This document shows positions 24,480 to 48,344 of a DNA stretch of 64,000 nucleotides, in pieces. Numbering within the stretch: position 1 is the first letter of the stretch; every line of letters starts with the position of its first letter. Below the pieces are notes generated by a model. It was not told the origin of the DNA. It saw nothing but the letters and a program-made list of their open reading frames with translations, and made no database searches. The DNA is from Liolophura sinensis. Its lineage: Eukaryota > Mollusca > Polyplacophora > Chitonida > Chitonidae. The translations under genes were made by a program, and so were the position numbers. Where the stretch lies: contig NC_088304.1 in assembly GCF_032854445.1 (NCBI RefSeq), positions 36,069,551 through 36,133,550 of the forward strand. The letters run 5' to 3'.

Positions 24480-24526
24480 ATATTTTTTCAAAAATTGTAT
24501 TTGGGGCATTTTTTCCATGGAGTCTT

Positions 24527-24539
24527 AATCTGCTACCTT
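24527..24539 (+). repeat. Target-site duplication, left of LINE B
   Basis: AATCTGCTACCTT here recurs directly after the LINE poly(A) at 30,688-30,700. The leading AA is ambiguous with the poly(A), so the duplication is 11-13 bp. Confidence 0.9.
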
Positions 24540-24721
24540 GGGGAGAGTGTGCTAGACGCCGAAGTGAACGGACGTGTCGGTTATTCTCTGCTGTTTACAC
24601 ACTGGTGCAACAACAACGCTTGTTTTTGAGACTGATTTTTTGGTGAACTGGGAGCCCACAGAGCTTGAGTTTGGCCAGTGGTTACTGTTTGGTGAAGGGC
24701 GTGTGCCCCGTTTGATCAGGT

Positions 24722-25998
24722 ATGTCCAAGCCCGTGTCGTTTTCGCCTGTAAACAGGCCAAGCAGAACTTTGTCTGTGTCAATCTCTACACGAAGCAGCC
24801 CGGCATTTTCTACGGCTATCCAGAGGGACTTTATTCCTTTTCTGTCAAGTGTGTTAAATATCAAGACAGAGCTAATAAGTTTTCAGAAGAATTATTTAAA
24901 GAAACACTTCTATCTGCGCGTGGCTACAGTGGCTGGGCATAATGCCCTAGTGAGTAAATCCAACGTTGTTATAAATGTAACGACGTGGTCCATTATGCCC
25001 GCGTCGTCAGTTTACCTGAAACTGACGGCCCACTGGGCACCGGATGAAATGTCAGATGACACTATCAAGGCAGCTTTGAAACCCTATGGTGAATTCCTGG
25101 GTGTGACGAAACCCAGATTTTCAGACCCGGAGCTCTCACATGTTCGGACAGGTATTTGGATTTACAGATTTAGGTGTCACAAAGTTCGTTATGTACCAAA
25201 TTTTATTAATTTCGGTGGTGACATTGTTATGTTTACCTACCCCGGGCAAACCTCTGAAAGTCGGAAGTGTGGCCAAAAATCACACAAGGCGGCAGAGTGT
25301 AGGGCACTGTGGTGTTCTAACTGCGACGGATTCTCCCCCCATGAGAATCCTCATACAGAGAAGGACTGCACAAATCCATGCCGAATGTGTGACTCAGGGC
25401 TTCATACGGTCAGTGACTGTTGTGCGAGAGCAATGTCGTACGCGGCGCGAGTTAAGGGAAACCTACCGACTATGCGCCAGTACAATAAGGAAGACGCCGT
25501 AAAACAAGATAACATTGATATTGACGTCAGCGACGATGAAGACCCATTCAACGCACCTGCCATGGAACTGGTTCAAGACAGCGAGGAGAACGAAGACGAA
25601 ATCGACGGGAATGGTGACGACAGCGCCGATGAAGACGTCAGCGACGACAGCGAGTCTGATAAGGAGATGGACGTCCGGGAGAATACTAAGAACACCGAAG
25701 AAGTGGATGTTGGTGATAATGAAACGTCATCAGCTATCCCGAGGGTGAAGAATGTGGTGGTGGCTGACGTGCACGCTCCCGACGTGCGTTCACCAGTCCC
25801 AGTCGAGGAAAAGCGAGCTAAGTTGGACAATGGCAGTACAGCCGAAGAGGCAGCGTCATCTATCTCGCCCATTTCCCATCCTACTGATTATGATGGTGTC
25901 CCCCTCCATCTCAGGAGGGGGACACCATGCTTCTGGAATACAGGAAAAGAAAATCGCTTGCTTCTCGTGCGAGGCAGCGAATGAAAAGAGACAAATGA
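24722..25998 (+). CDS. LINE B ORF1, zinc-knuckle RNA-binding protein
   Basis: The ATG at 24,722 starts MSKPVSFSPVNRPSRTLSV, parallel to LINE C ORF1. The N-terminal region resembles ORF1 of Tx1-type LINEs. It carries TAHWAPDEMSDDTIKAALKPYGE, then three Cys-rich knuckles: ESRKCGQKSHKAAEC (the first Cys of the motif is Ser here, whereas LINE C keeps Cys), CSNCDGFSP-(H..H)-KDC, and CRMCDSGLHTVSDCC. A strongly acidic tail follows. The long frame runs to 25,984, but comparison with LINE C shows a shift near 25,900. The conserved basic end (MLLEYRKRKSLASRARQR) is in another frame and stops at 25,998. ORF1 coats the RNA during retrotransposition. One missing Cys and the shift suggest loss of function. 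Confidence 0.85.
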
Positions 25999-26034
25999 GT
26001 TGTAACGTAATTAGGGCTCTCTTATTTGACCACA

Positions 26035-27281
26035 ATGGGTATGTACGCTCTACCTTTACTTATTTGTATAACGAGCTTAAATAATATTCGTTTTGGGACT
26101 TTAAACATTAATGGTTTACGGGATCCGTCCAAACAAGAACATGTCAAGCAATTTGTTTTCGATAAAGGAATTGATGTACTATTCTTACTATTCTAAACTA
26201 TAATGACACTAAATATTTGCAAATACCGGGCGATGCAAGGTGGGCGTATGGGTCAAATCGAAGTTGTGGGGTGGGAATAATTATTAGGTATACGGTAGAC
26301 TGCTTTATACGGAAAATACAGAGGTGCCCTAACGGTCGCTACATAAGCCTTAGGGTTGAGCTCAACAACACTGCTTTAAACCTTGTTTGTGTATATGCCC
26401 CTAATAATCCAAAGGAAAGAAAAGAGTTTATTTCTAATCTAGATAATGTGATGCAGGGCAGTGAGTTGGTTATTATGGGTGGGGATTTTAATTGTGTTGA
26501 GAGCATTGAATTAGATAGAGCTGGCTGTGCCACTAATGGAAGGAATGATGGAGTGGACGGAATTAATAATTTGAAAAGAGATTTTGGTATTTGTGATATT
26601 TTTAGGAAACTGCATCCGAATAAGAATTGTTACACGTGGTCTAGGCGCCAGTGTGCCAGTAGATTGGATAGATTTTATATCCCTAACGCTGTGTTTAAGT
26701 ATGTAACCCAGTGTGATGCTGTACATGTGTCTTTTTCTGATCATTCGTGTTTGTTTTTTGATGTCTCTTTTGAAGATGTCATTTCATGGGGGCCGTTCTA
26801 CTGGAAGTGTAATACGTCTGTGTTAAATGACACGGAGCTTGTTGATGATATTAAATCCGTCTTCCATGATATTTTCTCTGTCTGTACAACTGGTCATGCA
26901 GATCTAATAGACAGATGGGAGACATTTAAAAGGGAATGTAAAGACAGAATTCGGAGTTACTGTAAGGAGAAATCTATGAACAAAAAATGTGAATTGTTGG
27001 AACAAGAATTAAATGCGTTGAAATCTAGTCCAATCATTAACTGTGAGCGTACTGACAATGTGAAAAAGACTCTAAATGCCCTTTATAAGTCGAATCATGC
27101 GGGAGCGGTTATCCGTGCTAAAGCTGTTAATTTTGATCAGGGAGAAAAACCAACCAAATATTTTACTAGACGAGAAGTTGGTAGGGGCAGAAAGAAGATG
27201 ATCAAAAGTATTACTTGTCATAGTGATTCTTCAATATCCCATGAATCTCAGGAAGGTATTGCTAAGTGTATAAGGTCGTAT
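26035..27281 (+). pseudogene. LINE B ORF2, endonuclease part
   Basis: The ATG at 26,035 starts 36 bp after ORF1 (MGMYALPLLICITS), matching the LINE C start. RFGTLNINGLR is followed by FDKGIDVLFL, and then a small deletion near 26,190 removes the QETHF segment with the catalytic Glu and shifts the frame. From 26,217 the APE-like endonuclease continues: SNRSCGVGIIIRY, VYAPNNPKERKEF, IMGGDFNCVE, YTWSRRQCASRLDRFY and FSDHSCLFF, with the Asp-Asn and SDH residues intact. The frame ends at KCIRSY, split by the solo LTR. This endonuclease normally nicks the target DNA; it cannot be active here. Confidence 0.9.
27278..27281 (+). repeat. 4-bp target-site duplication of the solo LTR (left)
   Basis: GTAT here is repeated at 28,294-28,297. 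Removing the LTR and one GTAT restores an uninterrupted ORF2 frame, as judged from LINE C. Confidence 0.9.
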
Positions 27282-28293
27282 TGTTATGTATGACTATTTA
27301 ACGTCTTCATGTACTGTTAGTCTGCGGACCTTTGTGAAAGCATAACAGGCCCTGTTATATATGTACAGCGCGGACCTGGCCGAAAGCACCTTGTTCAAGG
27401 CTCTGTTTATTTAACTGGCTGTTCATTGGCTGTTAAACTCTGTGTTTAAAAATAGTTGAATCCACCTGGCACGTATATAAGCCGTGTTTTCTGTGCAGAG
27501 GGGAGGTATTTTTGCTGCATCCACTGGGAGCCAGGAGAGTGTGAGACGCTCTCGTATCGAGTCCATTATTTTGATATGAGCTGGTGATGCCAGTTTCATT
27601 TGGAGGACAGTTTTTTATGCCGGCACCGTTTGTGTACCACAGTAGTACTGATGTCTGATTTATGTGAATTTCTGCGGAAGTCACGTTTATTGGTGTTCGG
27701 ATCTTTATTATGATTATACAGTGTGGACTGTGTAATTTGTTTAACACGCTGACCTCACCTGACCGACATGGTCGTCAAGGACTCTGAACTGAAGTTTTCA
27801 GTTTTGCAAAGGACGTTCGTTCTGCCACAAGGTGACATTACTCTACGTCTCTTAACGGCTCGTTTGTGAGCTTCTGCGGGAGCTGTGACTGATCTGAAGT
27901 GGATTATACCTCCATGCCTGTATTTACCCTGTGTTGTGCTCTGCGGGTGTGACGTCATTCAAAGGCTTGACTGTTCCAGTTCTGTGTAACCTGTGTACTG
28001 TGTTCGTGTTTGCTAACCTGGCGAAGTACCTGTCTAGGACAATTTGTGACTTGTGTGAATTGTGTGTTTATCCCATGGTCTTTACGTTGTATTTCCTGGA
28101 ATACATTCCTTGGGATGCAAAGGTGAACTGGAAACTTGTAAAGACCGGTAATACTGATGTGTATGTTTTTTTTATGTTGTTGTTGTTGAACTGTCTGTAA
28201 ACTGTACGTCTCATTTTATATATAAAGCATTGTTTACATTGTAATATTGAGTCACTGAGTCTGTTTTCTGTTGCTGTTTTCAATACCGTAACA
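27282..28293 (+). mobile_element. Solo LTR, 1,012 bp
   Basis: It starts TGTTATGTATG and ends ATACCGTAACA with TGTTA/TAACA inverted ends, and has the GTAT duplication on both sides. A TATATAAG TATA box lies near 27,474-27,481, with TATATAAAGC near the 3' end as a possible polyadenylation region. It encodes no protein. The terminal sequences match in style those of the gypsy element at 12,562-17,341 (TGTTATGTG...CGTAACA), suggesting the same group. A solo LTR forms by recombination between two LTRs of one provirus-like insertion. Confidence 0.85.
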
Positions 28294-30508
28294 GTATTAT
28301 ATGAAATTGTATACTGAACAAGATACTGACTCCTCCATTCAAGATGAGTTCTTGTCATCGCTTCCGATGTTAAATGACGATTGTAAAACTGCCTGCGAAG
28401 GCCTTTTGACTGAACAGGAGTTGTTTTTTGCAGTGAAAAATATGTCTAAAAACCGTTCGCCGGGATGCGACGGTTTGCCAGCAGAGTTTTATGTACAATT
28501 TTGGCCCCTTTTTTCGGGTGTGTTTACGGATGTAGTTAATTACTGTTTTAACTTGGGTAGATTAAGTAATTCACAGCGTTCTGGGTTAATCACATTATTA
28601 TGTAAGGACCCCGACAATGCCGAAAGCATAAAAAACTGGAGTGCAATTAGCCTACTAAATGTAGATTAGAAGATTGTTTCTAAAGCTTTGTGCAATCGGT
28701 TAAAAAATGTGATCGATACAATTGTACTTCAGAATCAGACATGTGGAATACCAGGCCGAAGTATTTTTGACAACCTTCACTTATTACGAAATACATATGA
28801 TTATGTTGAACAAAAAGATTTAAAAGGATGCTTTCTTAACTTAGACCAGGAGAAAGCCTTTGACAGAGTAGACTGGTCATTTTTGTTCAAATGTTTAGAG
28901 AAATTTAACTTCGGACCCGACTTTTGTAAGTGGGTGCAATTATTATATACTGACATTACAAGTAGTGTTATTGTGAACGGGCACATAACAGAAGAATTTA
29001 AACTGAGTCGAGGTGTCCGACAGGGTTGTTCTTTGTCACCATTATTGTATGTTTTGTCCTTAGAGCCCTTTATAGCCGCCATTAGAAACAATGACGAAAT
29101 TAATGGTGTACGGTTACCCGGCACAAATAAGGAAACAAGAGTGTCGGCATTTGCAGATGATACGACTGCAATTTTATCTGAAGAGAGTTCTGTTCCGCAT
29201 GTAATTAAACTAGCAGAAAGTTATGGAAAAGCCTCAGGAGCAAAACTCAACTTGTTGAAAAGCACGGTTCTTCCCATTGGTAACTGGGACGAAACTAACG
29301 TGCACAGTGGTGGGCTTAACATCACTACAAATTCAAAGATTTGTGGGGTATTTTTTGGACCAGATCAAACAGAACTCAATTCTGAGCGTGTTTTAAGTAA
29401 GGTAAAGAAACATGTATCAGCATGGAATGGAAGATATTTGACCCTACGGGGGAGGTCTGTCTTAATTAATACAGTTGCTTTAGCTGTCTTATGGTTTTCT
29501 GCACAGTGTACTCTGTTGCCACCTAAATGTGTCAATCAATGTTCCCAAACTGTGTTCAGATTTTTGTGGGATAACAAGCCCGAAAGTCTGAAGAGAGTTG
29601 TCGTACATAATATAATAGGGAATGGAGGTCTAAACGTACATAATATAGAATGTAAAATAAAAGCACTTGTTACTCGGCATGTTTTAAAATTTATTCATGG
29701 AACAACAGCGGAATGGAAATACTTTGCCATCTATTGGTTGGGTTTACCCCTAAGGCATGTTTGTCGTGAATTCTGTCGTTCCAATGTCCCACATTCTGAA
29801 AACATTCCACCTTTTTATAGACTGGCCATGAGCGCCTGGAGAGAATTTACCACAGGTGTACAGCAACCTGTAACATTGTGTTCAAGCAGGTATATTTATG
29901 AATATTTTGTAACAAAAATAGTACATTGTCCAAGAGCAATGGTGTCTATGCCGCATTTGGACTGGGTTAGAATATGGAAAACTGTTTTTCATCAATTCTT
30001 AAATCACAATTTGGTCAACTTCAGTTACAAGTTGGTTCATGACATTTTGCCCGTTAAGGAAAAACTTCTTAGGAGAAATGTAGCCACCGATGACTGGTGT
30101 GTTTTTTGCTCCCTGTCTGAAACTCGGCAACATCTGTTTGTACAATGTAAAATAGTTCAGGATGTGTTTAATGACTTTAACCGGATATTTGTTTTGTTTG
30201 CGAACTACTTACCAAATATAGACTCGGAAACGTTAATTTACAAGGTATTCAATTCCACCTTTAACCAGGAAGTTAGAGCGGTGATGGTGTATGTCATATG
30301 TGTTCTTCAGTTTAGTATTTGATGTGCACGCAACGGCATAATATTTCAGGAAAAAAACAGGGATTCTGTTGCTATTGTTAAGGCCGCCAAAGGAATAATT
30401 AAAACCCGTATTCATGTTGACATTTTTCGACTAGACAGGCCATCTTTCGAGAAAATCTGGTGTATAAACAAAGTCTTCTGTACATTACGGAATGATAAAT
30501 TAGTGTAA
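28294..30508 (+). pseudogene. LINE B ORF2, reverse transcriptase and C-terminus
   Basis: The frame resumes after the LTR: YMKLYTEQDTD, TEQELFFAVKNMSKNRSPGCDGLPAEF, then a TAG near 28,669 where LINE C has a Tyr codon (VDYKIL). The 544-residue frame from 28,688 carries GIPGRSIFDNLHLLRN, LDQEKAFDRVDWSF, RGVRQGCSLSPLLYVLSLEPF and VSAFADDTTAIL (the FADD catalytic motif, intact), then thumb and C-terminal parts including a DWCVFCSLSETRQHLFVQC zinc motif. A TGA near 30,320 replaces a Trp codon; the natural stop is TAA at 30,506-30,508. Apart from two nonsense changes the RT is well kept, so the element died fairly recently. Confidence 0.9.
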
Positions 30509-30660
30509 TTATTGAAATGAGCAGCTAATGTGCAATTGTTCTATTCACAAAGCAGTCATCTTTTCTGTGATATTTTATTTTACTAAAGACTGCCTTGTGA
30601 TTTCGAAAGTTTGTGATAGCCGGGTATTGTGAAATCTTGTGTATTTGATGACAATCTGGA

Positions 30661-30666
30661 AATAAA
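30661..30666 (+). terminator. LINE B polyadenylation signal
   Basis: AATAAA about 14 bp before the poly(A). LINE C has the same AATAAATTCAA context at 47,145. Confidence 0.8.
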
Positions 30667-31786
30667 TTCAACAATTTTCAAAAAAAAAATCTGCTACCTT
30701 ACTCACCCTTGGTCAACTTTTGCGAACGTCTGCTCCATATTGAGTGCGTCAAGTGACAACCATACCTTCGTCCCCATCAAACCTATTTCCTCTTTATACA
30801 CTTTCGCCTATTATTCCAGTAACGTCTTTCGAAGTGTTGTTTCTCTTTTGCCAAAATTTCCATCTTGTAGAAATTCGCATTACGCCTGTTTACTTCGATT
30901 GTACTGACGGCATGGAAATGCAATACAAGTCTCTTGTCAGTTTTATCAAGTTACAGACAACCGTGTCATAGGTTACATGAAGGGTAAAGACAAAGTTTTT
31001 CTCGGTCAAGAAGCTACGCCGACCAGTGAGTAGTCTAGGTGACCTGCAATAAAACTTCTTTATTGGTAAAAAATACGAGCTTGCGAAATTCTCTAGCCTG
31101 TTCCCTCTTTTGTGACTTTGTAAAAACATTCGCCATATACTACGCATTGGAATTTGCCCTCATTCTTTTGCTGCTCCTTGGGACCCCATCCCGAATTGAT
31201 TTGTAGGGCGGTATGATTTTCCTTCATGTCAAAACCAAACAAGTGCTTTGGGGGAGGAAATTGTCTGACTTTGCTTTACTATGTTTGTAATTACCAGTGC
31301 TTTCAAAATTGTGTTTTCTTGTGGAAAGACCAATGTTTTATTTATAAGGGAAATACGTTGATATGCCTGTATGTAGACTGTTGGATTTTTTTCGTATATA
31401 CAACTTTGACGCGATTGTGGAGTCCTATGATGTATCCATGTTACTTTGGATGAGTAAGGGATTCCCTCTTTGTGAACCTCTCAAAAATTTCGCCATGCAT
31501 TTAAGAGATGGATTTTGCTCTGATTCTTCTACTGCACCTGGGTATCTCACCCTGAAATACTTTGTCTAGCGGCATGATTTGCTTGATGTCAAAGAAGGAC
31601 AAGTGTTTTGGACAAGAATTTGTCGAAAATTGCTTCATTCTGGGTGATTGATACATGTGTATTTATGGTAGATAGGCGGGTTTTGCACGGCGGGGTACTG
31701 GTTGTTGACCAGCTGTTGCTCTTTTCTCAGTTTACATGCTGACACACATGGATTTTGCATTGAAATTTTCTGTGAGAGGCAGAAAT

Positions 31787-31858
31787 GGCTCGTTGGTCTA
31801 GAGGTATGATTCTCGCTTTGGGTGCGAGAGGTCCCGGGTTCAATTCCCGGACGAGCCC
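31787..31858 (+). tRNA. tRNA-Pro(UGG)
   Basis: First intact gene after LINE B. Sequence as the reference copy. 5' flank has GAGAGGCAGAAAT, shared with the damaged copy at 49,468. Six-T terminator. Confidence 0.96.
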
Positions 31859-32982
31859 ATATTTTTTCAAAAATTGTATTTGGGGCATTCTTTCCAGCAA
31901 GTCTTAATCTGCTACCTTACTCACCCTTGGTCAACTTTTGCGAACGTCTGCTCCATATTGAGTGTGTCAAGTGACAACCATACCTTCGTGCCCATCAAAC
32001 CTATTTCCTCTTTATACACTTTCGTCTATTATTCCAGTAACGCCTTTTGAAGTGTTGTTTCTGTTTCGCCAAAATTTCCATCTTGTAGAAATTCGCATTA
32101 CGCCTGTTTATTTCGATTCTACTGACGGCATGCAAATGCAATACAAGTCTCTAGTCAGTTTTATCAAGTTACGGATAACCGTGTCATACGGTTACATAAA
32201 GGGTAAAGACAAAGTTTTTCTCGGTCAAGAAGCTACGCCGACCAGTGAGTAGTCTAGGTGACCTGCAATAAAACGTCTTTATTGGTGAATAATACGAGCT
32301 TGCGAAATTCTCTAGCCTGTTCCCTCTTTTGTGACTTTGTAAAAACATTCGCCATATACTACGCATTGGAATTTGCCCTCATTCTTTTGCTGCTCCTTGA
32401 GACCCCATCCCGAATTGATTTCCCCAGGGATATGATTTTCCTTCATGTCAAAAACAAGCAAGTGCTTTGGGCAGGAAAATGTCTAACATTGCTTTACTAT
32501 GCTTGTAATTACCAGTGCTTTCAAAATTGTGTTTTATAAACGAAAGACTTGTGTTTTATGTATAAGGGAAATAGGTGGATATGCCTGCATGAAGATTGTT
32601 GGATTTTTTTCGTATATACAACTTTGACGCGATTGTGGAGTCCAATGATGAAACCAGGTTTCACTTTGTGATCTTCTCAAAAATTTCGCCATGCATTTAA
32701 GAGATGGATTTTGCTCTGATTCTTCTACTGCACCTGGGGATCTCACCCTGAAATACTTTGTCTAGCGGCATGATTTGCTTGATGTCAAAGAAGGACAAGT
32801 GTTTTGGACAAGAATTTGTCTAAAATTGCTATATTCTGGTTGATTGATACATGTGCATTTATGGTAGATAGGCGATTTTTGCACGGCGGGGTACTGGTTG
32901 TTGACCAGCTGTTGCTCTTTTCTCGGTTTACATGCTGACACACATGGATTTTGCATTGAAATTTTCTGTGAGTGGCAGAAAT

Positions 32983-33054
32983 GGCTCGTTGGTCTAGAGG
33001 TATGATTCTCGCTTTGGGTGCGAGAGGTCCCGGGTTCAATTCCCGGACGAGCCC
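32983..33054 (+). tRNA. tRNA-Pro(UGG)
   Basis: Intact copy, 1196 bp after the previous one (short spacer type). Six-T terminator. Confidence 0.96.
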
Positions 33055-34200
33055 CATATTTTTTCAAAAATTGTATTTGGGGCATTCTTTCCATGGAGTC
33101 TTAATCTGAATCCTTACTCACCCTTAGTTAGCTTTCCAAACATCTGCTTCATATCTTCGTGCGTCAAGTGGCAACCATATCTTCGTGCCCATCAAACCTA
33201 TTTCCTCTTTATACACTTTCGTCTATTATTCCAGTGACGCCTTTCCAAGTGCTGTTTCTGTTTTGCCAAAATCTCCATCTTGTAGAAATTCGCATTACGC
33301 CTGTTTACTTCGATTGTACTGACGGCATGGAAATGCAATACAAGTCTCTTGTCAGTTTTATCAAGTTACAGACAACCGTGTCATAGGTTACATGAAGGGT
33401 AAAGACAAAGTTATTATCGGTCAAGAAGCTAGGCCGATCTGTGTGCAGTCTAGGTGGCCTGCAATAAACCGTCTTTATTGGTGAATAATAGGAGCTTGCG
33501 AAATTCTCTAGCCTGTTCCCTCTTTTGTGACTTTGTAAAAACATTCGCCATATACTACGCATTGGATTTTGCCCTCATTCTTTTGCTGCTCCTTGGGACC
33601 CCATCCCGAATTGATTTGTAGGTGGTATGATTTTCCTTCATGTCAAAACCAAACAAGTGCTTTGGGGGAGGAAATTGTCTGACTTTGCTTTACTATGTTT
33701 GTAATTACCAGTGCTTTCAAAATTGTGTTTTCTTGTGGAAAGACCAGTGTTTTATTTATAAGGGAAATACGTGGATATGCCTGTATGCAGACTGTTGGAT
33801 TATTTTCGTATATACAACTTTGACGCGATTGTGGAGTCCTATGATGTATCCATGTTACTTTGGATGAGTAAGGGTTTCCCTCTTTGTGAACCTCTCAAAA
33901 ATTTCGCCATGCATTCAAGAGATGGATTTTGCTCTGATTCTTCTACTGCACCTGATTATCTCACCCTGAAATACTTTGTCTAGCGGCATGATTTGCTTGA
34001 TGTCAAAGAAGGACAAGTGTTTTGGACAAGAATTTGTCTAAAATTGCTATATTCTGGGTGATTGATACATGTGCATTTATGGTAGATAGGCGGGTTTTGC
34101 ACGGCGGGGTACTGGTTGTTGACCAGCTGTTGCTCTTTTCTCGGTTTACATGCTGACACACATGGATTTTGCATTGAAATTTTCTGTGAGTGGCGGAAAT

Positions 34201-34272
34201 GGCTCGTTGGTCTAGAGGTATGATTCTCGCTTTGGGTGCGAGAGGTCCCGGGTTCAATTCCCGGACGAGCCC
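34201..34272 (+). tRNA. tRNA-Pro(UGG)
   Basis: Intact copy, 1218 bp after the previous one (long spacer type). 5' flank variant GTGGCGGAAAT, shared with 36,615 and 37,832. Confidence 0.96.
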
Positions 34273-35396: not shown

Positions 35397-35468
35397 GGCT
35401 CGTTGGTCTAGAGGTATGATTCTCGCTTTGGGTGCGAGAGGTCCCGGGTTCAATTCCCGGACGAGCCC
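35397..35468 (+). tRNA. tRNA-Pro(UGG)
   Basis: Intact copy, 1196 bp after the previous one. It is the counterpart, 2,414 bp on, of the gene at 32,983. Confidence 0.96.
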
Positions 35469-36614: not shown

Positions 36615-36686
36615 GGCTCGTTGGTCTAGAGGTATGATTCTCGCTTTGGGTGCGAGAGGTCCCGGGTTCAATTCCCGGACGAGCCC
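36615..36686 (+). tRNA. tRNA-Pro(UGG)
   Basis: Intact copy, 1218 bp after the previous one. Counterpart, 2,414 bp on, of the gene at 34,201, with the same GTGGCGGAAAT flank. Confidence 0.96.
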
Positions 36687-37831: not shown

Positions 37832-37903
37832 GGCTCGTTGGTCTAGAGGTATGATTCTCGCTTTGGGTGCGAGAGGTCCCGGGTTCAATTCCCGGACGAG
37901 CCC
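37832..37903 (+). tRNA. tRNA-Pro(UGG)
   Basis: Intact copy, 1217 bp after the previous one. Same GTGGCGGAAAT 5' flank. Confidence 0.96.
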
Positions 37904-39025
37904 ATATTTTTTCAAAAATTGTATTTAATGCATTCTTTCCATAAAGTCTTAATCTGCTACCTTACTCACTCTTGGTCAACTTTTGCGCACGTCTGCTCCA
38001 TATTGAGTGCGTCAAATGGCAACCATACCTCCGTGGCCATCAAACCTATTTCCTCTTTATACACTTTCGTCTATTAATCCAGTGACGCCTTTTGAAGTGT
38101 TGTTTCTCTTTTGCCAAAATTTCCATCTTGTAGAAATTCGCATTACGCCTGTTTACTTCGACTCTACTGACGGCATGCAAACGCAATACAAGTCTCTAGT
38201 CAGTTTTATCAAGTTACTAACAACCGTGTCATAGGTTTCATGAAGGGTAAAGACAAAGTTATTCTCGGTCAAGAAGCTAGGCCGACCTGTGAGTAGTCTA
38301 GGTGACCTGCAATAAAACGTCTTTTTTGGTGAATAATAGGAGCTTGCGAAATTCTCTAGCCTGTTCCCTCTTTTGTGACTTTGTAAAAACATTCGCCATA
38401 TACTACGCATTGGATTTTGCCCTCATTCTTTTGCTGCTCCTTGAGACCCCATCCCGAATTGATTTCTCCAGGGATATGATTTTCCTTCGTGTCAAAAACA
38501 AGCAAGTGCTTTGGGCAGGAAAATGTCAAACATTGCTTTACTATGTTTGTAATTACCAGTGCTTTCAAAATTGTGTTTTAGAAACGAAAGACCTGTGTTT
38601 TATGTATAAGGGAAATAGGTGGATATGCCTGCATGAAGATTGTTGGACTATTTTCGTATATACAACTTTGACGCGATTGTGGAGTCCAATGATGAAACCA
38701 GGTTTCACTTTGTGATCTTCTCAAAAATTTCGCCATGCATTACGAGATGGACATTGCTCTGATTCTTCTACTGCACCTGGGGATCTCACCCTAAAATAGT
38801 TTGTTTGGCGGGATGATTTGCTTGATGTCAAAGAAGGACAAGTGTTTTGGACAAGAATTTGTCTAAAATTGCTATATTCTGGGTGATTGATACATGTGCA
38901 TTTGTGGTAGATAGGCGGGTTTTGCACGGCGGGGTACTGGTTGTTGACCAGCTGTTGCTCTTTTCTCAGTTTACATGCTGACACACATGGATTTTGCATT
39001 GAAATTTTCTGTGAGTGGCAGAAAT

Positions 39026-39097
39026 GGCTCGTTGGTCTAGAGGTATGATTCTCGCTTTGGGTGCGAGAGTTCCCGGGTTCAATTCCCGGACGAGCCC
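39026..39097 (+). tRNA. tRNA-Pro(UGG), variable-loop variant
   Basis: Same as the reference except G to T in the variable region (GAGAGTTCCC). The stems, the A and B boxes and the anticodon are unchanged, so it may well be functional. 1194 bp after the previous gene. Confidence 0.9.
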
Positions 39098-40220
39098 CAT
39101 ATTTTTTCAAAAATTGTATTTTGGGCATTCTTTCCATGGAGTCTTAATCTGAATCCTTACTCACCCTTAGTTAGCTTTCCAAACATCTGCTTCATATCTT
39201 CGTGCGTCAAGTGGCAACCATATCTTCGTGCCCATCAAACCTATTTCCTCTTTATACACTTTCGTCTATTATTCCAGTGACGCCTTTCCAAGTGCTGTTT
39301 CTGTTTCGCCAAAATCTCCATCTTGTAGAAATTCGCATTACGCCTGTTTACTTCGATTGTACTGACGGCATGCAAATGCAATACAAGTCTCTAGTCAGTT
39401 TTATCAAGTTACAGACAACCGTGTCATAGGTTACATGAAGGGTAAAGACAAAGTTTTTCTCGGTCAAGAAGCTCGGCCGACCTGTGAGTAGTCTAGGTGA
39501 CCTGCAATAAAACGTCTTTTTTGGTGAATAATAGGAGCTTGCGAAATTCTCTAGCCTGTTCCCTCTTTTGTGACTTTGTAAAAACATTCGCCATATACTA
39601 CGCATTGGATTTTGCCCTCATTCTTTTGCTGCTCCTTGAGACCCCATCCCGAATTGATTTCTCCAGGGATATGATTTTCCTTCGTGTCAAAAACAAGCAA
39701 GTGCTTTGGGCAGGAAAATGTCAAACATTGCTTTACTATGTTTGTAATTACCAGTGCTTTCAAAATTGTGTTTTAGAAACGAAAGACCTGTGTTTTATGT
39801 ATAAGGGAAATAGGTGGATATGTCTGCATGAAGATTGTTGGATTATTTTCGTATATACAACTTTGACGCGATTGTGGAGTCCAATGATGAAACCAGGTTT
39901 CACTTTGTGATCTTCTCAAAAATTTCGCCATGCATTACGAGATGGACATTGCTCTGATTCTTCTACTGCACCTGGGGATCTCACCCTAAAATAGTTTGTT
40001 TGGCGGGATGATTTGCTTGATGTCAAAGAAGGACAAGTGTTTTGGACAAGAATTTGTCTAAAATTGCTATATTCTGGGTGATTGATACATGTGCATTTGT
40101 GGTAGATAGGCGGGTTTTGCACGGCGGGGTACTGGTTGTTGACCAGCTGTTGCTCTTTTCTCAGTTTACATGCTGACACACATGGATTTTGCATTGAAAT
40201 TTTCTGTGAGTGGCAGAAAT

Positions 40221-40292
40221 GGCTCGTTGGTCTAGAGGTATGATTCTCGCTTTGGGTGCGAGAGGTCCCGGGTTCAATTCCCGGACGAGCCC
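40221..40292 (+). tRNA. tRNA-Pro(UGG)
   Basis: Intact copy, 1195 bp after the previous one. The unit around it is almost identical to the one before, yet it lacks the variable-loop change. Confidence 0.96.
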
Positions 40293-41439
40293 CATATTTT
40301 TTCAAAAATTGTATTTTGGGCATTCTTTCCATGGAGTCTTAATCTGAATCCTTACTCACCCTTAGTTAGCTTTCCAAACATCTGCTTCATATCTTCGTGC
40401 GTCAAATGGCAACCATATCTTCGTGCCCATCAAACCTATTTCCTCTTTATACACTTTCGTCTATTATTCCAGTGACGACTTTCCAAGTGCTGTTTCTGTT
40501 TTGCCAAAATCTCCATCTTGTAGAAATTCGCATTACGCCTGTTTACTTCGATTGTACTGACGGCATGCAAATGCAGTACAAGTCTCTTGTCAGTTTTATC
40601 AAGTTACAGACAACCGTGTCATAGGTTTCATGAAGGGTAAAGACAAAGTTATTATCGGTCAAGAAGCTAGGCCGATCTGTCTGCAGTCTAGGTGGCCTGC
40701 AATAAACCGTCTTTATTGGTGAATAATAGGAGCTTGCGAAATTCTCTAGCTTGTTCCCTCTTTTGTGACTTTGTAAAAACATTCGCCATATACTACGCAT
40801 TGGATTTTGCCCTCATTCTTTTGCTGCTCCTTGGGACCCCATCCCGAATTGATTTGTAGGGCGGTATGATTTTCCTTCATGTCAAAACCAAACAACTGCT
40901 TTGGGGGAGGAAATTGTCTGACTTTGCTTTACTATGTTTGTAATTACCAGTGCTTTCAAAATTGTGTTTTCTTGTGGAAAGACCAGTGTTTTATTTATAA
41001 GGGAAATACGTTGATATGCCTGTATGCAGATTGTTGGATTATTTTCGTATATACAACTTTGACGCGATTGTGAAGTCCTATGATGTATCCATGTTACTTT
41101 GGATCAGTAAGGGTTTCCCTCTTTGTGAACCTCTCAAAAATTTCGCCATGCATTCAAGAGATGGATTTTGCTCTGATTCTTCTACTGCACCTGATTATCT
41201 CACCCTGAAATACTTTGTCTAGCGGCATGATTTGCTTGATGTCAAAGAAGGACAAGTGTTTTGGACAAGAATTTGTCTAAAATTGCTATATTCTGGGTGA
41301 TTGATACATGTGCATTTATGGTAGATAGGCGGGTTTTGCACGGCGGGGTACTGGTTGTTGACCAGCTGTTGCTCTTTTCTCAGTTTACATGCTGATACAC
41401 ATGGATTTTGCATTGAAATTTTCTGTGAGTGGCAGAAAT

Positions 41440-41511
41440 GGCTCGTTGGTCTAGAGGTATGATTCTCGCTTTGGGTGCGAGAGGTCCCGGGTTCAATTCC
41501 CGGACGAGCCC
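41440..41511 (+). tRNA. tRNA-Pro(UGG), upstream of LINE C
   Basis: Intact copy, 1219 bp after the previous one. The 300-bp duplication flanking LINE C starts 44 bp after its last base, just past the terminator. Confidence 0.96.
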
Positions 41512-41554
41512 ATATTTTTTCAAAAATTGTATTTGATGCATTCTTTCCATAAAG

Positions 41555-41854
41555 TCTTAATCTGCTACCTTACTCACTCTTGGTCAACTTTTGCGAACGT
41601 CTGCTCCATATTGAGTGCGTCAAATGGCAACCATATATTCGTGGCCATCAAACCTATTTCCTCTTTATACACTTTCGTCTATTAATCCAGTGACGCCTTT
41701 TGAAGTGTTGTTTCTCTTTTGCCAAAATTTCCATCTTGTAGAAATTCGCATTACACCTGTTTACTTCGATTGTACTGACGGCATGCAAATGCAATACAAG
41801 TCTCTAGTCAGTTTTATCAAGTTACGGACAACCGTGTCATAGGTTTCATAATGG
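41555..41854 (+). repeat. 300-bp duplication, left of LINE C
   Basis: It begins CTTAATCTGCTACC and ends TTTCATAATGG. The same 300-bp stretch of the unit recurs at 47,176-47,475 after the LINE poly(A). The end ATAATGG is found only in these two copies; every other unit has a different sequence there (for example ATGAAGGG or ATAAAGGG). About 8-10 substitutions separate the copies. Confidence 0.8.
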
Positions 41855-42042
41855 AAAAAGTTTCATTCGGGGCGTGGAGTGAACACATGCTTTTTTCCAG
41901 CGCAACAAATCGGGGGCATCCTTAGGTATAGTGACTGTTGTTGTACAATATTTTTGTGCCATATTGTTGACAAGACTTAGCTGAGTTCGAGGGTGTCTTT
42001 ATTTGTGGGATTTGGGCCGTGGGCCAGTCAAAATTGATGAAA

Positions 42043-43421
42043 ATGTCGAAGCCTGTTTATTTCCCTGTTCTGAACAAGCCGGATAGACCATTGTCAGTAG
42101 CTATGTCTACACGTAGCATTGTAAGCCTTTTATCTGCTGTCCAAAGAGACTTTATTGGGGCTTTGTCAAGTGTGATTAACATTAAATCTGACTTAGTGTG
42201 TTTTCAAAAGAATTACCTGAAGAAGATTTTCTATGTTCGTGTTGCCACACAGGCTGCACATAGTGCTCTGTTGAAGCAGGAAAACTTTGTTCTTGGTGAC
42301 ACCGTATGGAATATTACCCCGGCCAGTTCTGTGTTTATGAACCTTACTGCCCACTGGGCCCCTGATGAAATGTCGGATGATTTGATAGCGTCCGCTTTGA
42401 AACCATACGGAGAGTGCCTTAGTGTTACGAAACCACGGTTTTCTGACAAGGAATTTGCGGGCGTGCGAACTGGTATTCGAGTATATCGGTTCAGGTGTCA
42501 CAAAACGCGGTATGTGCCAAACTTTATTAACCTGGGGGTGAGGTAGTAATGTTTACATACACTGGGCAAATCTACGAATGTAGGAAGTGTGGACAAAATG
42601 GGCATAAAGCCATGGAATGCTGTGCCTTATGGTGCGATAACTGTTCAGGGTTCTCCCCTCATGATGATCCCCACACTGTGAAGGATTGCACACGAGCGTG
42701 TCGTATGTGTGGCTCGATAGAACATGCAAGTGGTAATTGCTGTGCTCGGGCTTTAACGTATGCGTCCAAAGTGAAGAATTCTGTGCTGAATACGGCGAGC
42801 GTGCAGGGCCCCGATGAGGACGTCATAATTGACGTTGACGTTGTTGGGGGCGATAGCGACGATGACTTAGAGTTTCCACCTCCTGCCATGGAAATTGTTA
42901 AACTGGACAAGGACAACAACATAACTGACAACGAAGGAGTAGATGGTGATGATGTTGACGTAGATAGTGATGGTGATGGTGATAGTCTTGATGGTGATGA
43001 TGATGATAACAAAGAAATGGGCGCAGATGACGAAACTGAGATTGACGCTACCAGAGCGGAGGATGATCCAGTAGGTGACATTGAGTGTGACAGAGGTACG
43101 CGCGTTGTACCAAATGTCACCAAAGACGGTGATGGTGTGACCAGAGATTTGTCTGGTGCGATAGAAGTCGAGGCGGAAGTCCACTGCGTGCAATCTCCAG
43201 AGCCCGTTGAACAAAAGAGAGCAAAACTGGACAATGAACCGGAGGGGACGTCATCGACATTATAGAGCACTCTACCGTCGGATTGCGTAATGCAGGGGGA
43301 CTCGGACATATCTGAAATCATGACACCCACCCTCTCTCAAGGTACTGATAAAATGTTATTAGAGTATCGGCGCAGGAAATCTTTCGCCTCTCGTCCGAGA
43401 GCGCGTAAAGACAATGAATAG
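42043..43421 (+). pseudogene. LINE C ORF1, zinc-knuckle RNA-binding protein, frameshifted
   Basis: The start ATG at 42,043 (MSKPVYFPVLNKPDRPLSV) is chosen by alignment to LINE B; an in-frame ATG at 42,019 also exists. The first part runs through TAHWAPDEMSDDLIASALKPYGE to NFINLGVR. A G is missing in the run near 42,534, and the frame continues from 42,549 with three knuckles: YECRKCGQNGHKAMECC (complete CX2CX4HX4C), CDNCSGFSP and CRMCGSIEHASGNCC. An Asp-rich acidic tail follows, a TAG at 43,263, then the conserved basic end MLLEYRRRKSFASRPRAR and the natural TAG at 43,419-43,421. It would package LINE RNA. Confidence 0.88.
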
Positions 43422-43463
43422 ATTTTACTAGGATTTGTTCATGGATATGCTCTCACATGAACA

Positions 43464-46400
43464 ATGGGTATGTACCTTCATATTTTTCTTATCTGTTTAA
43501 TGTCTCTCGTATCTAACATACGTTTTGGCACTTTAAATGTTAATGGCCTGCGCGCTGTTACAAAGCAGGAGCAGGTACAACAATTTGTTTTTGATAACAA
43601 TATTGATATTTTGTTCTTACAAGAAACACATTTTCAATATTATAAGGACGCTAGGAATTTTAAAATTCCAGGGGATGCTAGGTGGGCCTACGGGTCAAGT
43701 AAAAGTTGTGGGGTAGGGATTGTGATTAAATACACCGTTGACTGTGTAATACGTAATGTCGTTAGATGTCCTAACGGGCGTTACATAAGTGTTAAAGTGA
43801 CAATTAATGACACGGCTCTTAATCTGATATGTATATATGCTCCTAATAATCCACAGGATAGGAAAGAATTCATTTCTAACCTAGACAGTGTAATGCGTGG
43901 GAGTGAATTAGTCATTCTTGGTGGGGATTTTAACTGCGTTGAAAATATTATATTGGATAGAAATGGGTCTGCAAATAATGTGAGAAATGTTGGTATTGAT
44001 GAAATTAATAGTATTAAATATGATTTTGACGTGTGTGATATTTTTAGGAAGTTTCATCCGGACAAACGGTGCTACACCTGGTCAAGAGGCCAGTGCGCTA
44101 GTCGGTTTGATAGATTCTACCTTCCTAATGCTGTTCAGAGTTATGTAACCTTTTGTGATGTTAAACATGTCTCCTTTTCTGATCATTCTTGTCCTATTGT
44201 TGGTGTAAATTTTACGGATGTAATTACTTGGGGTCCGTTTTATTGGAAATGTAACACTTCTGTTTTGAATGACGATGAACTTGCTGTACAAATAAATGAT
44301 GTCTTTGTAAGTATTTTTTCTGATGGTGACATTTGTGATGATACCTTAGTGGACAGGTGGGAGGCTTTCAAAAAGGATTGTAAAGATGTAATACGTAATT
44401 ATTGTTCCCAAGTTTCATTAAGGAAAAACAGCCAGTTGTTGGATCTACAAGATGAATTGAATGTATTAAAGACAAACCCTGTTGTAAATAGTGATAAGAT
44501 TGATAATGTAAAGAAGGCCATTAATTGTTTAAATAGAGACAGACATGCGGGATCGGTTATTAGGGCTAAGGCTGTTCACTTTCATAAGGGGGAAAAGCCT
44601 ACGAAGTATTTTATTAGGAGGGAAGTGGGGAGGGGAAAAAAGAAAATGATAAAGGAAATTAGGTGTCATGGGAATGAGTCTCGGTCCCATAAATCCCAGC
44701 ATGAAATTGCTAAATGTATCAGGTTATATTACAAACAATTATACAGTAAGCAGTATACTGATTTTGTGTGTCAAGACGCGTTTCTATCAGAATTACCGAA
44801 GTTAAATGATAATTGTAAAGCTCTTTGTGAGGGCGCATTGACGGAACAAGAACTCTTGTTTGCTGTAAATAATATGTGTAAATAATATGTGTAAATACCG
44901 TTCGCCTGGTTGTGATGGCTTACCGGCCGAGTTTTATGTAACGTTCTGGCCTCTGATTGGCAATGTATTTACTGAAGTTGTCAATTGTTGTTTTCGCTCC
45001 GGCAGTTTTAGTCCGTCCCAGCGGAGTGGTCTTATCACATTGCTATGTAAGGACCCCAATAATGCAACGGACATAAGGAATTGGAGGCCTATTAGTTCAC
45101 TGAACGTAGATTACAAAATTTTGTCAAAAGCTTTATGTAATCGTTTAAAATCTGTTATTGACAAGGTGGTTAATCAGAACCAAACTTGTGGAATACCAGG
45201 TCGTAGTATATTCGACAATTTACATCTTTTACGTAATGTCTACGATTACGTGGAACGGAAAGATTTGAAGGCATGCTTTTTAAATTTAGATCAGGAGAAG
45301 GCTTTTGACAGGGTTGATTGGTCCTTTTTGTTCAAATGTTTAGAGATGTTTAATTTTGGGCCCGAATTTTGTGCATGGGTTAAATTACTGTACACAAATA
45401 TCTCCAGCAGTGTGATTGTAAATGGACACATAAGTGAACAATTTAGTTTAAATAGAGGAGTCCGCCAGGGGTGTTCCCTATCACCACTGTTGTACGTTTT
45501 ATCGTTAGAGCCGTTTATATCGGCGCTTAGGAAGTCCAGTGTGATTAATGGTGTTGCCATGCCGGGAACAACTAAGCAGGCTAAGGTTTCTGCCTTTGCG
45601 GATGACACTACGGCAATTCTCTCAGATGAAAGTTCCGTGCAAGAAGTGGTTACTTTGACAGAAAATTATGGCAGGGCATCTGGGGCAAAACTGAATCTGT
45701 CCAAGACCACTGTCCTACCTATTGGAAATTGGGATAGTTCGTTAGTGCCTGAATTAGGGTTGAATACTGTTCAGAATTCCAAAATTTGTAGAATTTTTTT
45801 TTTGGAAAAGACCAGGCGGAACTCAACTGTACTCGTGTCTTAAATAAAGTTAAGAAAAATATAACTTCTGGGTGTGGAAGATATTTAACTCTTAGGGGGA
45901 GGGCTGTACTAATTAACTCTGTCGCCCTAGCGGTTTTATGGTTCACAGCACAATGTACTTTGTTACCTGCTAAATGTGTCACTCAATGTACGCAGATAGT
46001 ATTTAAATTTTTGTGGAATAATAAGCCTGAGAGTTTAAAGCGGGTTGTTGTACACAATAAATTTAAGAGTGGAGGTTTAAATGTTCATAATGTTGAGTGC
46101 AAAGCGAAAGCTTTAGCCGTATGTATTAAAATTGGTTTATGGTACTGAGGCCGACTGGAAATATTTTGCGATTTACTGGTTAGGTTTATCTTTGAGGAGT
46201 GTTTGTCCTGAATTTGCCAGGCACAGTGTCCCACACTCAGAACGTAACACACCCTTCTATCAGTTTGCGATAAATGCTTTTAAGGAATTCTATAGTGGTC
46301 AAACGTTACCTTCTGTGATGTACCCTAGTAAAGTTATTTATGATCAGCTTGTCACGAAAGCCTTACAGACACCACGGGTGATGTTAACATTTCCGCAGTT

Positions 46401-46994
46401 GAGATGAGATGTTGTTTGGAAAACGGTGTTCCACAAGTTTTTAGATCATAACTTGATCAATTTCTGTTTTAAGCTTGTTCATGATATTTTGCCCGTCAAA
46501 GAAAGACTACTGAGGCGTAATATCGCCACTGACGACTCCTGTGTATTTTGTTCTGGTTCGGAAACACAGGACCATTTGTTTGTTCAATGTCATATTGTCT
46601 CTCAGGTGTTCCTGGAATTCAGCCGGGTGTTTGTTCTTTATGGTCGCGTTTTGCCGAATCTTGACAAGGACACACTAATTTACAAATCACTTAATTTTCC
46701 GGAAGTGAGGGCTGTTGTGTTATATATAATTACAGTGTTACGGAAGTGAGGGCTGTTGTGTTATATATAATTACAGTGTTACAATTTTGCACTTGGTGTG
46801 CAAGAAACCAAGTGGTGTTTCAAAATGAGCAAAGAGATGCAAGTACGATCGTTGCCGTGGCTAAAGGTATGATAAGGACAAGAGTTCATGTTGATTTCTA
46901 TCGGTTAAATCGGTCACTGTTTAAAAAGTATTGGTGTCACAACAAAATCTTCTGTAGGGTAGACCATGACAAGATAGTTTATCTACTCCGCTAA
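43464..46994 (+). pseudogene. LINE C ORF2, endonuclease-reverse transcriptase, frameshifted
   Basis: 473 intact residues (43,464-44,885) give a whole APE-like endonuclease: RFGTLNVNGLR, LFLQETHF (catalytic Glu), CIYAPNNPQDRKEF, GGDFNCVE and FSDHSCPIV. A 13-bp tandem duplication at 44,868-44,893 then shifts the frame. From 44,887 the RT reads YRSPGCDGLPAEF, GIPGRSIFDNLHLLRN, LDQEKAFDRVDWSF, RGVRQGCSLSPLL and SAFADDTTAIL (FADD). A T-run slip near 45,795, a small loss near 46,120, a stop near 46,405 and a 41-bp tandem duplication at 46,700-46,781 break the rest. The C-terminus keeps CVFCSGSETQDHLFVQC and ends at 46,994. Every catalytic motif is present, so this copy was probably active when it inserted. 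Confidence 0.92.
46700..46781. repeat. Tandem duplication, 2 x 41 bp
   Basis: CGGAAGTGAGGGCTGTTGTG begins at 46,700 and again at 46,741. Both 41-bp copies are identical. It shifts ORF2 near its C-terminus. Confidence 0.95.
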
Positions 46995-48272
46995 CAAAGT
47001 GATTTGATGATTACAAGAGTCACACAGCAGTCCCAACTTGTCTGTGATCTGTTTTGTTTTTAAGTGGGCTGCGCTGTGAATCTCAATATTATTCCGTTAC
47101 TGATATGTCTCTGTGTATGTATGTTTTCGTAAACGTTTATTGGGAATAAATTCAATCTTTCAAAAAAAAAAAAAAACTTAAACTGCTACCTTACTCACTC
47201 TTGGTCAACTTTTGCGAACGTCTGCTCCATATTGAGTACGTCAAATGGCAACCATATCTTCGTGGTCATAAAACCTATTTCCTCTTTATACACTTTCGTC
47301 TATTAATCCAGTGACGCCTTTTGAAGTGTTGTTTCTCTTTTGCCAAAATTTCCATCTTGTAGAAATTCGCATTACGCCTGTTTACTTCGACTCTACTGAC
47401 GGCATGCAAATGCAATACAAGTCTCTAGTCAGTTTTATCAAGTTACTAACAACCGTGTCATAGGTTTCATAATGGGTAAAGACAAAGTTATTCTGGGTCA
47501 ATATGCTAGGCCGGCCTGTTTGTAGTCTAGGTGACCTGCAATAAACCGTCTTTATTGGTGAATAATAGGAGCTTGCGAAATTCTCTAGACTGTTCCTTTC
47601 GTTGTGACTTTGTGGAAAAAATCGACATATACCACGCAATGGATTTTGCCCTCATTCGTTTGCTGCTCCTTGGGACCCCATCCGGAGTTGATTTCTCCAG
47701 GGGTATGATTTTCCTTGATGTCAAAAACAAACAAGTGCTTCGGGCAGGGAAATGTCTAGCTTTGCTTTACTATGTTTGTAATTACCAGTGCTTTCAAAAT
47801 TGTGTTTTCTAATCAAAAGACGTTTGTTTTATGTATAAGGAAAATACGTTGATATGCATGAGGATTGTTGGATTATTTTCGTGTATACAACTTTGACGCG
47901 ATTGTGAAGTCCTATGATGTATCCATGTTACTTTGGATCAGTAAGGGTTTCCCTCTTTGTGAACCTCTCAAAAATTTCGCCATGCATTACGAGATGGACT
48001 TTGCTCTGATTCTTCTACTGCACCTGGGGATCTCACCATCAAATCCTTTGTCTAGCGGCATGATTTGCTTGATGTCAAAGAAGGACAAGTGTTTTGGACA
48101 AGAATTTGTCTAAAATTGCTATATTCTGGGTGATTGATACATGTGCATTTATGGTAGATAGGCGGGTTTTGCACGGCGGGGTACTGGTTGTTGACCAGCT
48201 GTTGCTCTTTTCTCGGTTTACATGTTGACACACATGGATTTTGCTTTTACATTTTGTGTAATTGGCATAAAT

Positions 48273-48344
48273 GGCTCGTTGGTCTAGAGGTATGATTCTC
48301 GCTTTGGGTGCGAGAGGTCCCGGGTTCAATTCCCGGACGAGCCC
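48273..48344 (+). tRNA. tRNA-Pro(UGG)
   Basis: Intact copy, the first after LINE C. It shares the variant 5' flank TGCTTTTACATTTTGTG with the copy at 20,752. Six-T terminator. Confidence 0.96.

Follow-up and report, generated by a model that had tools for sequence, protein, structure and literature searches.

TRE3 of Dictyostelium, a non-LTR element targeted to tRNA genes, has an APE endonuclease, a reverse transcriptase (RT) and a zinc finger, two open reading frames and an oligo(A) end, and it sits downstream of Pol III genes on the same strand, with no fixed target sequence. Among other elements, Dewa of zebrafish belongs to the Tx1 clade and is listed as target-specific, Keno occupies one set position within the Pol II-transcribed U2 gene, and NeSL elements have a restriction-like endonuclease. 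Passages of one paper describe Keno as an APE-type animal LINE in a multicopy RNA gene, and NeSL-1_TV, which is grouped with NeSL, as specific to tRNA-Pro genes (PMC4640811). In Dictyostelium TRE5-A integrates 5' of the tRNA gene and points the opposite way; the passages of a review that deal with it have TRE5-A targeting Pol III genes and TRE5 ORF1 contacting TFIIIB, and give downstream insertion as found only in dictyostelids (PMC5911963). LINEs that target Pol III genes by position have been described mainly from dictyostelids. No animal LINE of this kind was found in the literature searched, which does not prove absence. The passages concerned in a bivalve transposable element paper mention Tx1 elements and no tRNA targeting (PMC10294476), and the tRNA passages in a choanoflagellate one deal with codon use and not targeting (PMC6875170).

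The LINEs that we call LINE B and LINE C lie in a window of 64,000 nucleotides, which is the whole stretch of DNA analysed. With a third relative they are very probably APE-type, L1/Tx1-like elements that integrate just 3' of Pol III genes in the same orientation, and we infer a tether to the Pol III machinery. LINE B resembles TRE3 in structure, and also in placement, with 23 of 31 located copies lying 29-230 bp downstream of Pol III genes on the same strand, and differs from it in having an animal-like host, in its L1/Tx1-like lineage, in that range of distances and in its use of 5S and SRP RNA genes as well. Unlike Dewa, LINE B has free flank sequence and many kinds of Pol III gene as neighbours, and unlike Keno, LINE B and LINE C are placed by distance from Pol III genes. 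The comparison with Dictyostelium TRE elements had been raised in an earlier note on this DNA, and is borne out by the TRE3-like placement and by the finding of no fixed target sequence.

Both LINEs interrupt a tandem array of tRNA-Pro units with 18 tRNA genes called by ARAGORN in the window, and the features are collected in the table.

Features of the tRNA-Pro array and its two LINEs (positions in the window)
Feature	Position	Strand	Basis
Tandem array of tRNA-Pro units of about 1.2 kb each, split by LINE B and LINE C	17338..53660	+	unit aligned to window; 18 tRNA calls
tRNA-Pro (TGG) 5' of LINE B	24408..24479	+	tRNA calls
Left target duplication of LINE B, AATCTGCTACCTT (11-13 bp)	24527..24539	+	junction comparison
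LINE B with poly(A)	24540..30689	+	junctions against array unit; start shared by other copies
LINE B ORF1	24722..25984	+	ORF list, domain search
Open frame with endonuclease part of LINE B ORF2 (PF03372)	26175..27293	+	ORF list, Pfam
Insert of about 1.0 kb in LINE B ORF2	27282..28293	.	sequence comparison with LINE C
Part of LINE B ORF2 with RT (PF00078) and zf-RVT (PF13966) domains	28670..30322	+	ORF list, Pfam
Right target duplication of LINE B	30688..30700	+	junction comparison
tRNA-Pro 5' of LINE C	41440..41511	+	tRNA calls
Left copy of 299-bp stretch flanking LINE C	41556..41854	+	self-comparison
14-bp stretch at LINE C 5' junction, in part target-like	41855..41868	+	other C-family copies
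LINE C with poly(A)	41869..47176	+	junctions against array unit; other C-family copies
LINE C ORF2 (endonuclease PF03372, RT PF00078)	43461..45843	+	ORF list, Pfam
Right copy of 299-bp stretch flanking LINE C, begins CTTAAACTGCTACC	47177..47475	+	self-comparison

The 5' end of LINE B is 60 bp and its 3' junction 47-50 bp past tRNA-Pro. The 5' flank ends in CTTAATCTGCTACCTT, to 24539, the poly(A) meets (AA)TCTGCTACCTTACTCACC at 30688-30690, and the target duplication is of 11-13 bp. In most other LINE B copies the match starts at the base equivalent to 24540 or close by. LINE C meets CTTAAaCTGCTACC at 47177, which is the point that reads TTAATCTG in empty units. The earlier note placed both LINEs at the same point, and this holds for the 3' junctions, which are at one spot of the array, 45-50 bp past tRNA-Pro and 3-5 bp apart, but not for the 5' junction of LINE C, which is 357 bp past its tRNA, so that only the 3' junction is close. 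The left flank of LINE C continues to 41854, and therefore 299 bp are found on both sides of it, the two copies being identical at 289 of 299 positions. The 14 bp that follow the left copy look like filler, because the match to two further LINE C-family copies begins at the base equivalent to 41870.

That the two LINEs represent separate events, as had been proposed, is upheld by their divergence. The RT parts are identical at 182 of 242 residues and synonymous sites are saturated, with pS 0.75-0.88 and pN 0.16-0.31 over four coding pieces. By this comparison they are old separate lineages, hence two insertion events and not copies of one insertion, and the same saturation rules out that LINE C arose from LINE B by conversion. 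A rough, post hoc calculation puts the chance of two events in the same orientation within about 5 bp of each other in a 1.2-kb unit at 0.005; the proper test is the comparison of copies across the genome.

A genome search with the RT of LINE B gave at least 85 matches, a lower bound as 79 of 1034 candidates were scored, and these are grouped in clusters; besides the window copy at least 22 span all 550 residues at 97-99% identity. We examined 34 LINE B copies, all in the same assembly as the window and drawn from the top of a score-ranked list, and the 5' end could be located in 31, the exceptions being L076, L077 and L090. In 23 of the 31 there is a Pol III gene upstream on the same strand, and the distance from its 3' end to the 5' end of LINE B has a median of 100 bp. 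These 23 comprise 12 of 18 from a first batch (20 slices), nine of ten from a second (11 slices), the window copy and a copy designated C1. Of these genes 20 encode tRNAs, with nine or more isotypes among them, two encode 5S rRNA (110 bits each) and one encodes SRP RNA (210 bits). Members of the other families behave alike, as 4 of 4 located 5' ends (9 slices) are past a tRNA gene on the same strand, at 107, 164, 83 and 139 bp; two are LINE C-family and two third-family copies.

The shared insertion preference and link to tRNA genes suggested from the window are supported by these copies; the proposed target, a specific sequence of the tRNA-Pro repeat, was too narrow. Neither TCTGCTACC nor CTGCTACC occurs in any of 20 further full-length LINE B copies when the whole 641-bp 3' slice is searched. 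There is no one target at nearly all 3' junctions as in site-specific LINEs of the R1, Keno or Dewa type, and the absence of a fixed target is as in TRE3. The earlier note had taken 3' flanks scattered in unrelated sequence as evidence against targeting, and the flanks are indeed unrelated in sequence, but not in position, for the copies cluster behind Pol III genes. The 3' flanks are unlike and yet 23 of 31 copies are behind Pol III genes, so the target appears to be a position relative to these genes and not a repeat.

In the mechanism that we propose a component of the Pol III machinery (the polymerase, TFIIIB or TFIIIC) would be contacted by the retrotransposon complex and so recruit it to the site. 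The endonuclease would nick the bottom strand where a TT/AA-like step lies close by, and target-primed reverse transcription would then copy the LINE into the nicked site. Target duplications were found in 11 of 16 copies checked, 10 of these being of 8-20 bp, and the best reading of the junctions is that the preference for TT/AA is loose, with the motif inflated by poly(A) ambiguity. Of the 18 array units 17 have a TTAA at +46, counted from the tRNA end. In 13 units no other TTAA occurs over the first 250 bp, four units have more than one and one unit has none. This scarcity would explain why two diverged families are at the same point.

It is possible, though we think it unlikely, that a LINE protein recognises the DNA or RNA of Pol III genes, for example B-box DNA or the nascent transcript, and not Pol III proteins. 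In its favour, nascent RNA could give the same-strand bias, and tRNA, 5S and SRP RNA genes have Pol III transcription in common and no single shared DNA motif. Against it, a B box is lacking in the 5S gene, and this agrees better with a protein tether.

Survival bias, with random insertion and retention only in tRNA clusters where copies do no harm, would account for the clustering of LINE B copies, and tRNA genes are indeed present in 8 of 20 control slices 8-40 kb away from them, while none of 20 slices 2-4 Mb away has any Rfam match. However the excess persists against the nearby controls, in which a same-strand tRNA gene is within 250 bp, a limit chosen once the distances had been seen, at 0.166 of points (20 slices), or 0.176 with the five slices overlapping this LINE group removed (P for 23 or more of 31, 7.9e-12). 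The strictest control, which takes points only in the 8 nearby slices that hold tRNA genes, gives a rate of 0.41 and a P of 2.2e-4. Moreover each of the 23 follows its Pol III gene on the same strand, and for none of the 31 do the 250 bp upstream contain a called Pol III gene on the opposite strand, although 0.10-0.14 of control points have one. With many copies 97-99% alike in RT, sorting had little time to act, and on all this we regard survival bias as quite improbable.

A same-strand Pol III gene is absent within 250 bp upstream in the remaining 8 of the 31. It is farther upstream for L061 (857 bp), L064 (465 bp), L070 (475 bp), L079 (704 bp) and L080 (678 bp). The copy on C12 has a decayed tRNA-Pro-like copy, read by eye, about 460 bp away, the only such neighbour of L069 is a tRNA-Leu gene 379 bp away on the opposite strand, and for L091 no Pol III gene was called within about 1.1 kb. 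Three of these eight, the C12 copy, L064 and L079, are truncated at the 5' end.

Recognition by the endonuclease of TTAATCTGCTACC in the tRNA-Pro spacer, with site specificity like that of R1, Tx1L or Keno, is very improbable and is refuted as a general rule. It would fit two diverged families at one point, the C1 copy, which is 54 bp past tRNA-Pro(CGG) in another tRNA-Pro array and adjoins AAACTGAAT, and a related LINE inside a U2 snRNA gene with ATCTG at its 3' flank. However the motif is in none of the 20 other 3' slices, and most located copies are by non-Pro genes, namely tRNA genes for Leu, Glu, Gly, His, Ile, Asp, Thr and Ser, 5S and SRP RNA genes. The likeness of the array site to the U2 site, both having ATCTG, is unremarkable beyond 8 bases, as 62-317 of 2392 positions are equally good, and the idea of a U2 mimic was dropped. 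The spacer of the C1 array has no significant likeness to that of the window, and the C1 and C10 spacers could not be shown to be homologous, the CGG spacer having z of about 1 against shuffles.

That a few founder insertions were multiplied along with tRNA units is as hard to credit. Some copies are duplicates or recombinants, with flanks common to L076/L077 and to L056/L057 and a 3' flank common to L045 and L049, which have different 5' flanks (L065, L069). However the 23 counted 5' junctions are all distinct by eye, distances differ within one spacer type (Ile 76/73, Asp 81/54, His 118/56, Leu-CAG 51/161), and between LINE B and LINE C synonymous change has reached saturation.

With regard to lineage, ORF2 has the APE endonuclease and RT of the L1/Tx1 group (PF03372, PF00078), and in LINE B also the zinc-binding region past the RT (PF13966). 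Among proteins of solved structure L1 ORF2p is the best match to the endonuclease part, and it also ranks with the top hits for the RT. In a quick tree with SH-aLRT support only, LINE B and LINE C pair (100) within a set of 34 rows (99) that includes the U2-flanked L001. This last is a LINE relative joined to U2 on a contig of a bivalve-symbiont MAG, and its RT is 49% identical to that of LINE C. ORF1 of the Tx1 clade has CCHC zinc knuckles; LINE B ORF1 has cysteine-rich knuckles when read by eye and no family in a Pfam search. Membership of the Tx1 clade is plausible for LINE B and LINE C. Searches of viral contigs with LINE C ORF2, two RT alignments and one DNA pattern gave no relatives, nor did phage records, and plasmid records gave one weak match.

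We think it likely that there is an animal lineage of at least three families, with RT often 97-99% alike and long open frames, that is tethered to the Pol III apparatus as such, with insertion in one set orientation behind 5S rRNA, 7SL RNA and diverse tRNA genes, as an independent counterpart of TRE3. It would be a second, independent case of position-based targeting, an animal LINE with a built-in preference for safe sites, and, if true, the counterpart arose in a group otherwise known for sequence-specific insertion into RNA genes. With one relative in a U2 gene and a lineage at Pol III genes, exchange between sequence recognition and protein tethering becomes testable.

The insert in LINE B ORF2, which LINE C does not have, has the ends TGTTATG...CGTAACA with GTAT(T) on both sides, and judging from these ends we read it as solo-LTR-like. 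The ORF2 frame of LINE C is interrupted near 44864-44897 by a 13-bp tandem duplication. Outside the array, at 9.7-11.9 kb, lies a further element, LINE A, which is distantly related and decayed.

The earlier note had LINE B and LINE C, the two LINEs interrupting the tRNA-Pro array of the window, inserted by separate events at one point past the tRNA gene, and proposed a shared sequence preference. The common point is borne out, as both 3' junctions are at TTAATCTG of the empty array units, the 3' end of LINE C meeting CTTAAaCTGCTACC at 47177. Both elements are on the + strand. There were indeed two insertion events, as the RT sequences are identical at 182 of 242 residues, with pS of 0.75-0.88 against pN of 0.16-0.31 across four coding pieces; the two diverged as working elements under selection, well before residing in this array. 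The LINE C reading frame is broken, and the insert in LINE B ORF2 (Table) looks like a solo LTR.

The array-site sequence did not hold up as the target of LINE B. The window occupies C10:36069551-36133550 of a 609-Mb assembly. A search of this assembly with the LINE B RT, in which 79 of 1034 candidates were scored, gave at least 85 matches, and besides the window at least 22 are full length at 97-99% identity, clustered on several contigs. Neither TCTGCTACC nor CTGCTACC is present in any of the 3' slices from the 20 top-ranked rows after the window (0/20), and a fixed target sequence for LINE B is thus ruled out. A tRNA gene is found somewhere in nine of these 20 slices.

What most of the located copies have in common is a Pol III gene upstream of the 5' end. 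We took 5' slices for the same 20 copies, 11 more LINE B-like copies and nine more distant ones, leaving out the other listed RT matches, and extended 16 of the 40; Pol III genes were called by ARAGORN and Rfam, with distances accurate to a few bp. The LINE B-like set of 34 includes the window copy and one copy each on contigs C1 and C12; 31 of the 34, all but L076, L077 and L090, have a located 5' end. In 23 of the 31 a same-strand Pol III gene lies upstream with its end 29-230 bp away, at a median of 100 bp (window copy entered as 58), and nine tRNA isotypes are called among these genes. On the opposite strand, the 250 bp upstream are free of called Pol III genes in all 31. In the case of L068 the copy also splits a tRNA-Leu gene, so either this or the 5S rRNA could have drawn it.

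Features of the window, and LINE B copies of the same assembly (L numbers) with the Pol III gene upstream (strand of the gene relative to the copy)
Feature	Position	Gene	Distance (bp)	Strand	Remark
tRNA-Pro array	17338-53660				tandem units of ~1.2 kb, interrupted by LINE B and LINE C
LINE B, window copy	24540-30689 (+)	tRNA-Pro	60	same	target duplication AATCTGCTACCTT, 11-13 bp
Insert in LINE B ORF2	27282-28293				~1.0 kb; ends TGTTATG...CGTAACA, GTAT(T) either side; absent from LINE C
Duplication in LINE C ORF2	44864-44897				13-bp tandem, breaks ORF2
C1 copy		tRNA-Pro	54	same	
L062		tRNA-Leu	51	same	
L063		tRNA-Glu	174	same	
L065		tRNA-Leu	29	same	
L066		tRNA-Gly	230	same	
L067		tRNA-His	118	same	
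L068		5S rRNA	132	same	
L071		tRNA-Leu	161	same	
L072		tRNA-Pro	132	same	
L073		tRNA-Ile	76	same	
L074		tRNA-Asp	81	same	
L075		tRNA-Leu	106	same	
L078		tRNA	104	same	31 bits, no isotype call
L092		tRNA-Asp	54	same	
L093		tRNA, called Leu	100	same	
L094		5S rRNA	81	same	
L095		tRNA-Thr	103	same	
L096		tRNA-Ser	49	same	
L097		tRNA-Thr	125	same	
L098		SRP RNA	133	same	
L099		tRNA-His	56	same	
L100		tRNA-Ile	73	same	
L061		tRNA	857	same	nearest; flank like tRNA-Ile spacer of L073 and L100
L064		tRNA	465	same	5'-truncated
L070		tRNA	475	same	
L079		tRNA	704	same	truncated
L080		tRNA	678	same	
C12 copy		decayed tRNA-Pro-like copy	~460		read by eye; truncated
L069		tRNA-Leu only	379	opposite	
L091		none called in ~1.1 kb			

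The 250-bp limit was picked after the distances were known, and the same limit was used for controls. In 20 slices 8-40 kb from LINE B copies (7420 points), eight of them with tRNAs, a tRNA ends at most 250 bp upstream of a fraction 0.166 of points on the same strand and 0.101 on the opposite strand. Five of the slices overlap this LINE group, and one of these five has a further LINE B 5' end 117 bp past a same-strand tRNA-Phe (L120, outside the 23/31 count). With the five dropped (5565 points) the rates are 0.176 and 0.135, and the probability of 23 or more of 31 is 7.9e-12, or 1.7e-10 with all 34 LINE B-like copies as denominator. The strictest control, confined to the eight tRNA-holding slices, has a rate of 0.41 and gives P of 2.2e-4. 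At 2-4 Mb away none of 20 slices has any Rfam match. The remaining eight of the 31 copies, last in the Table, are without a same-strand Pol III gene within 250 bp; L069 may be a recombinant, as its 3' flank is identical to that of another copy.

Located copies of other families also lie downstream of tRNA genes. The 5' end was placeable in four of the nine distant slices and not in E83, E84, E85, E88 and E89, of which E84 and E85 are duplicates (99% alike across 1.7 kb). Two LINE C-family copies start 107 and 164 bp past a tRNA gene, and two of a third family, whose start is taken as the point where its two copies begin matching, 83 and 139 bp past one, all on the same strand. A 5'-truncated relative on C1 starts ~83 bp past a same-strand tRNA-Pro(AGG). 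Also on C1 is a composite array (L032-L036, 55845001-55895000) with tRNA-Pro of three anticodons (AGG, TGG, CGG) and a period of 5-7 kb, its AGG genes mostly on the opposite strand.

The insertions are characterised by side, strand and distance, with mixed gene kinds, free flank sequence and short target duplications, detected in 11 of 16 copies (ten of 8-20 bp, one core of 6). We suggest that the LINE is tethered to the Pol III apparatus and would then nick in a loosely sequence-dependent way. The nick context tends to YT^AA, a weak lean as the A next to the poly(A) is ambiguous. Past the tRNA, 17 of 18 array units have TTAA at +46, and in 13 of 18 this is the sole TTAA within 250 bp (the LINE B-bearing unit being read for 58 bp only), which would explain LINE B and LINE C at one point; the unit containing LINE C has a second at +171. 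The behaviour is like that of Dictyostelium TRE3, a likeness that does not extend to a claim of TRE family membership. Among known elements (see also PMC5006619), NeSL-1_TV targets tRNA-Pro genes and Keno and Utopia target U2 (PMC4640811), and the reported target of zebrafish Dewa is a tRNA-Leu spacer (PMC3706591).

ORF2 has an APE-type endonuclease (PF03372) and RT (PF00078), with zf-RVT (PF13966) also present in LINE B. The best relative of the endonuclease part with a solved structure is L1 ORF2p, which also ranks among the top matches for the RT part. Against prokaryote genome contigs the B/C RT alignment found one relative, in a MAG labelled in GTDB as symbiont of the lucinid bivalve Taylorina. 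The contig (L001:1-5340) looks like host contamination; its LINE, with RT 49% identical to that of LINE C, adjoins a U2 snRNA (RF00004, 129.9 bits), and at the contig end is the apparent start of another U2 copy. In a quick RT tree, built on 42 rows (L001, LINE B, LINE C and 39 of 146 listed proteins), LINE B and LINE C are paired (100) within a 34-row set (99) containing L001. The Tx1 clade is thus their likely placement. LINE A (9733-11846), beyond the array, is a decayed relative with pieces at 25-31% amino acid identity.

The 5' side of LINE C is unusual, its left flank running on as far as 41854. A 299-bp stretch flanks the element on either side (289/299 identical), and may be a very long target duplication or just as well the result of a later array rearrangement, as three adjacent units are about as alike (96-97%). 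The 14 bp ahead of the G run at the 5' junction look like filler, since the match of two other LINE C-family copies starts at the base equal to 41870.

Elsewhere in the array, the unit at 19308-20373 has lost most of its tRNA-Pro through a deletion of ~83 bp that starts within the tRNA and stops close to the LINE target point, with another deletion further on, and the tRNA-Pro at 49468-49536 is short of a few anticodon-arm bases and so called tRNA-Thr by ARAGORN. The window also has tandem repeats at 60596-61513 (19 bp, 48 copies) and 63211-63999 (135 bp, 5.8 copies), the latter extending to the window end.
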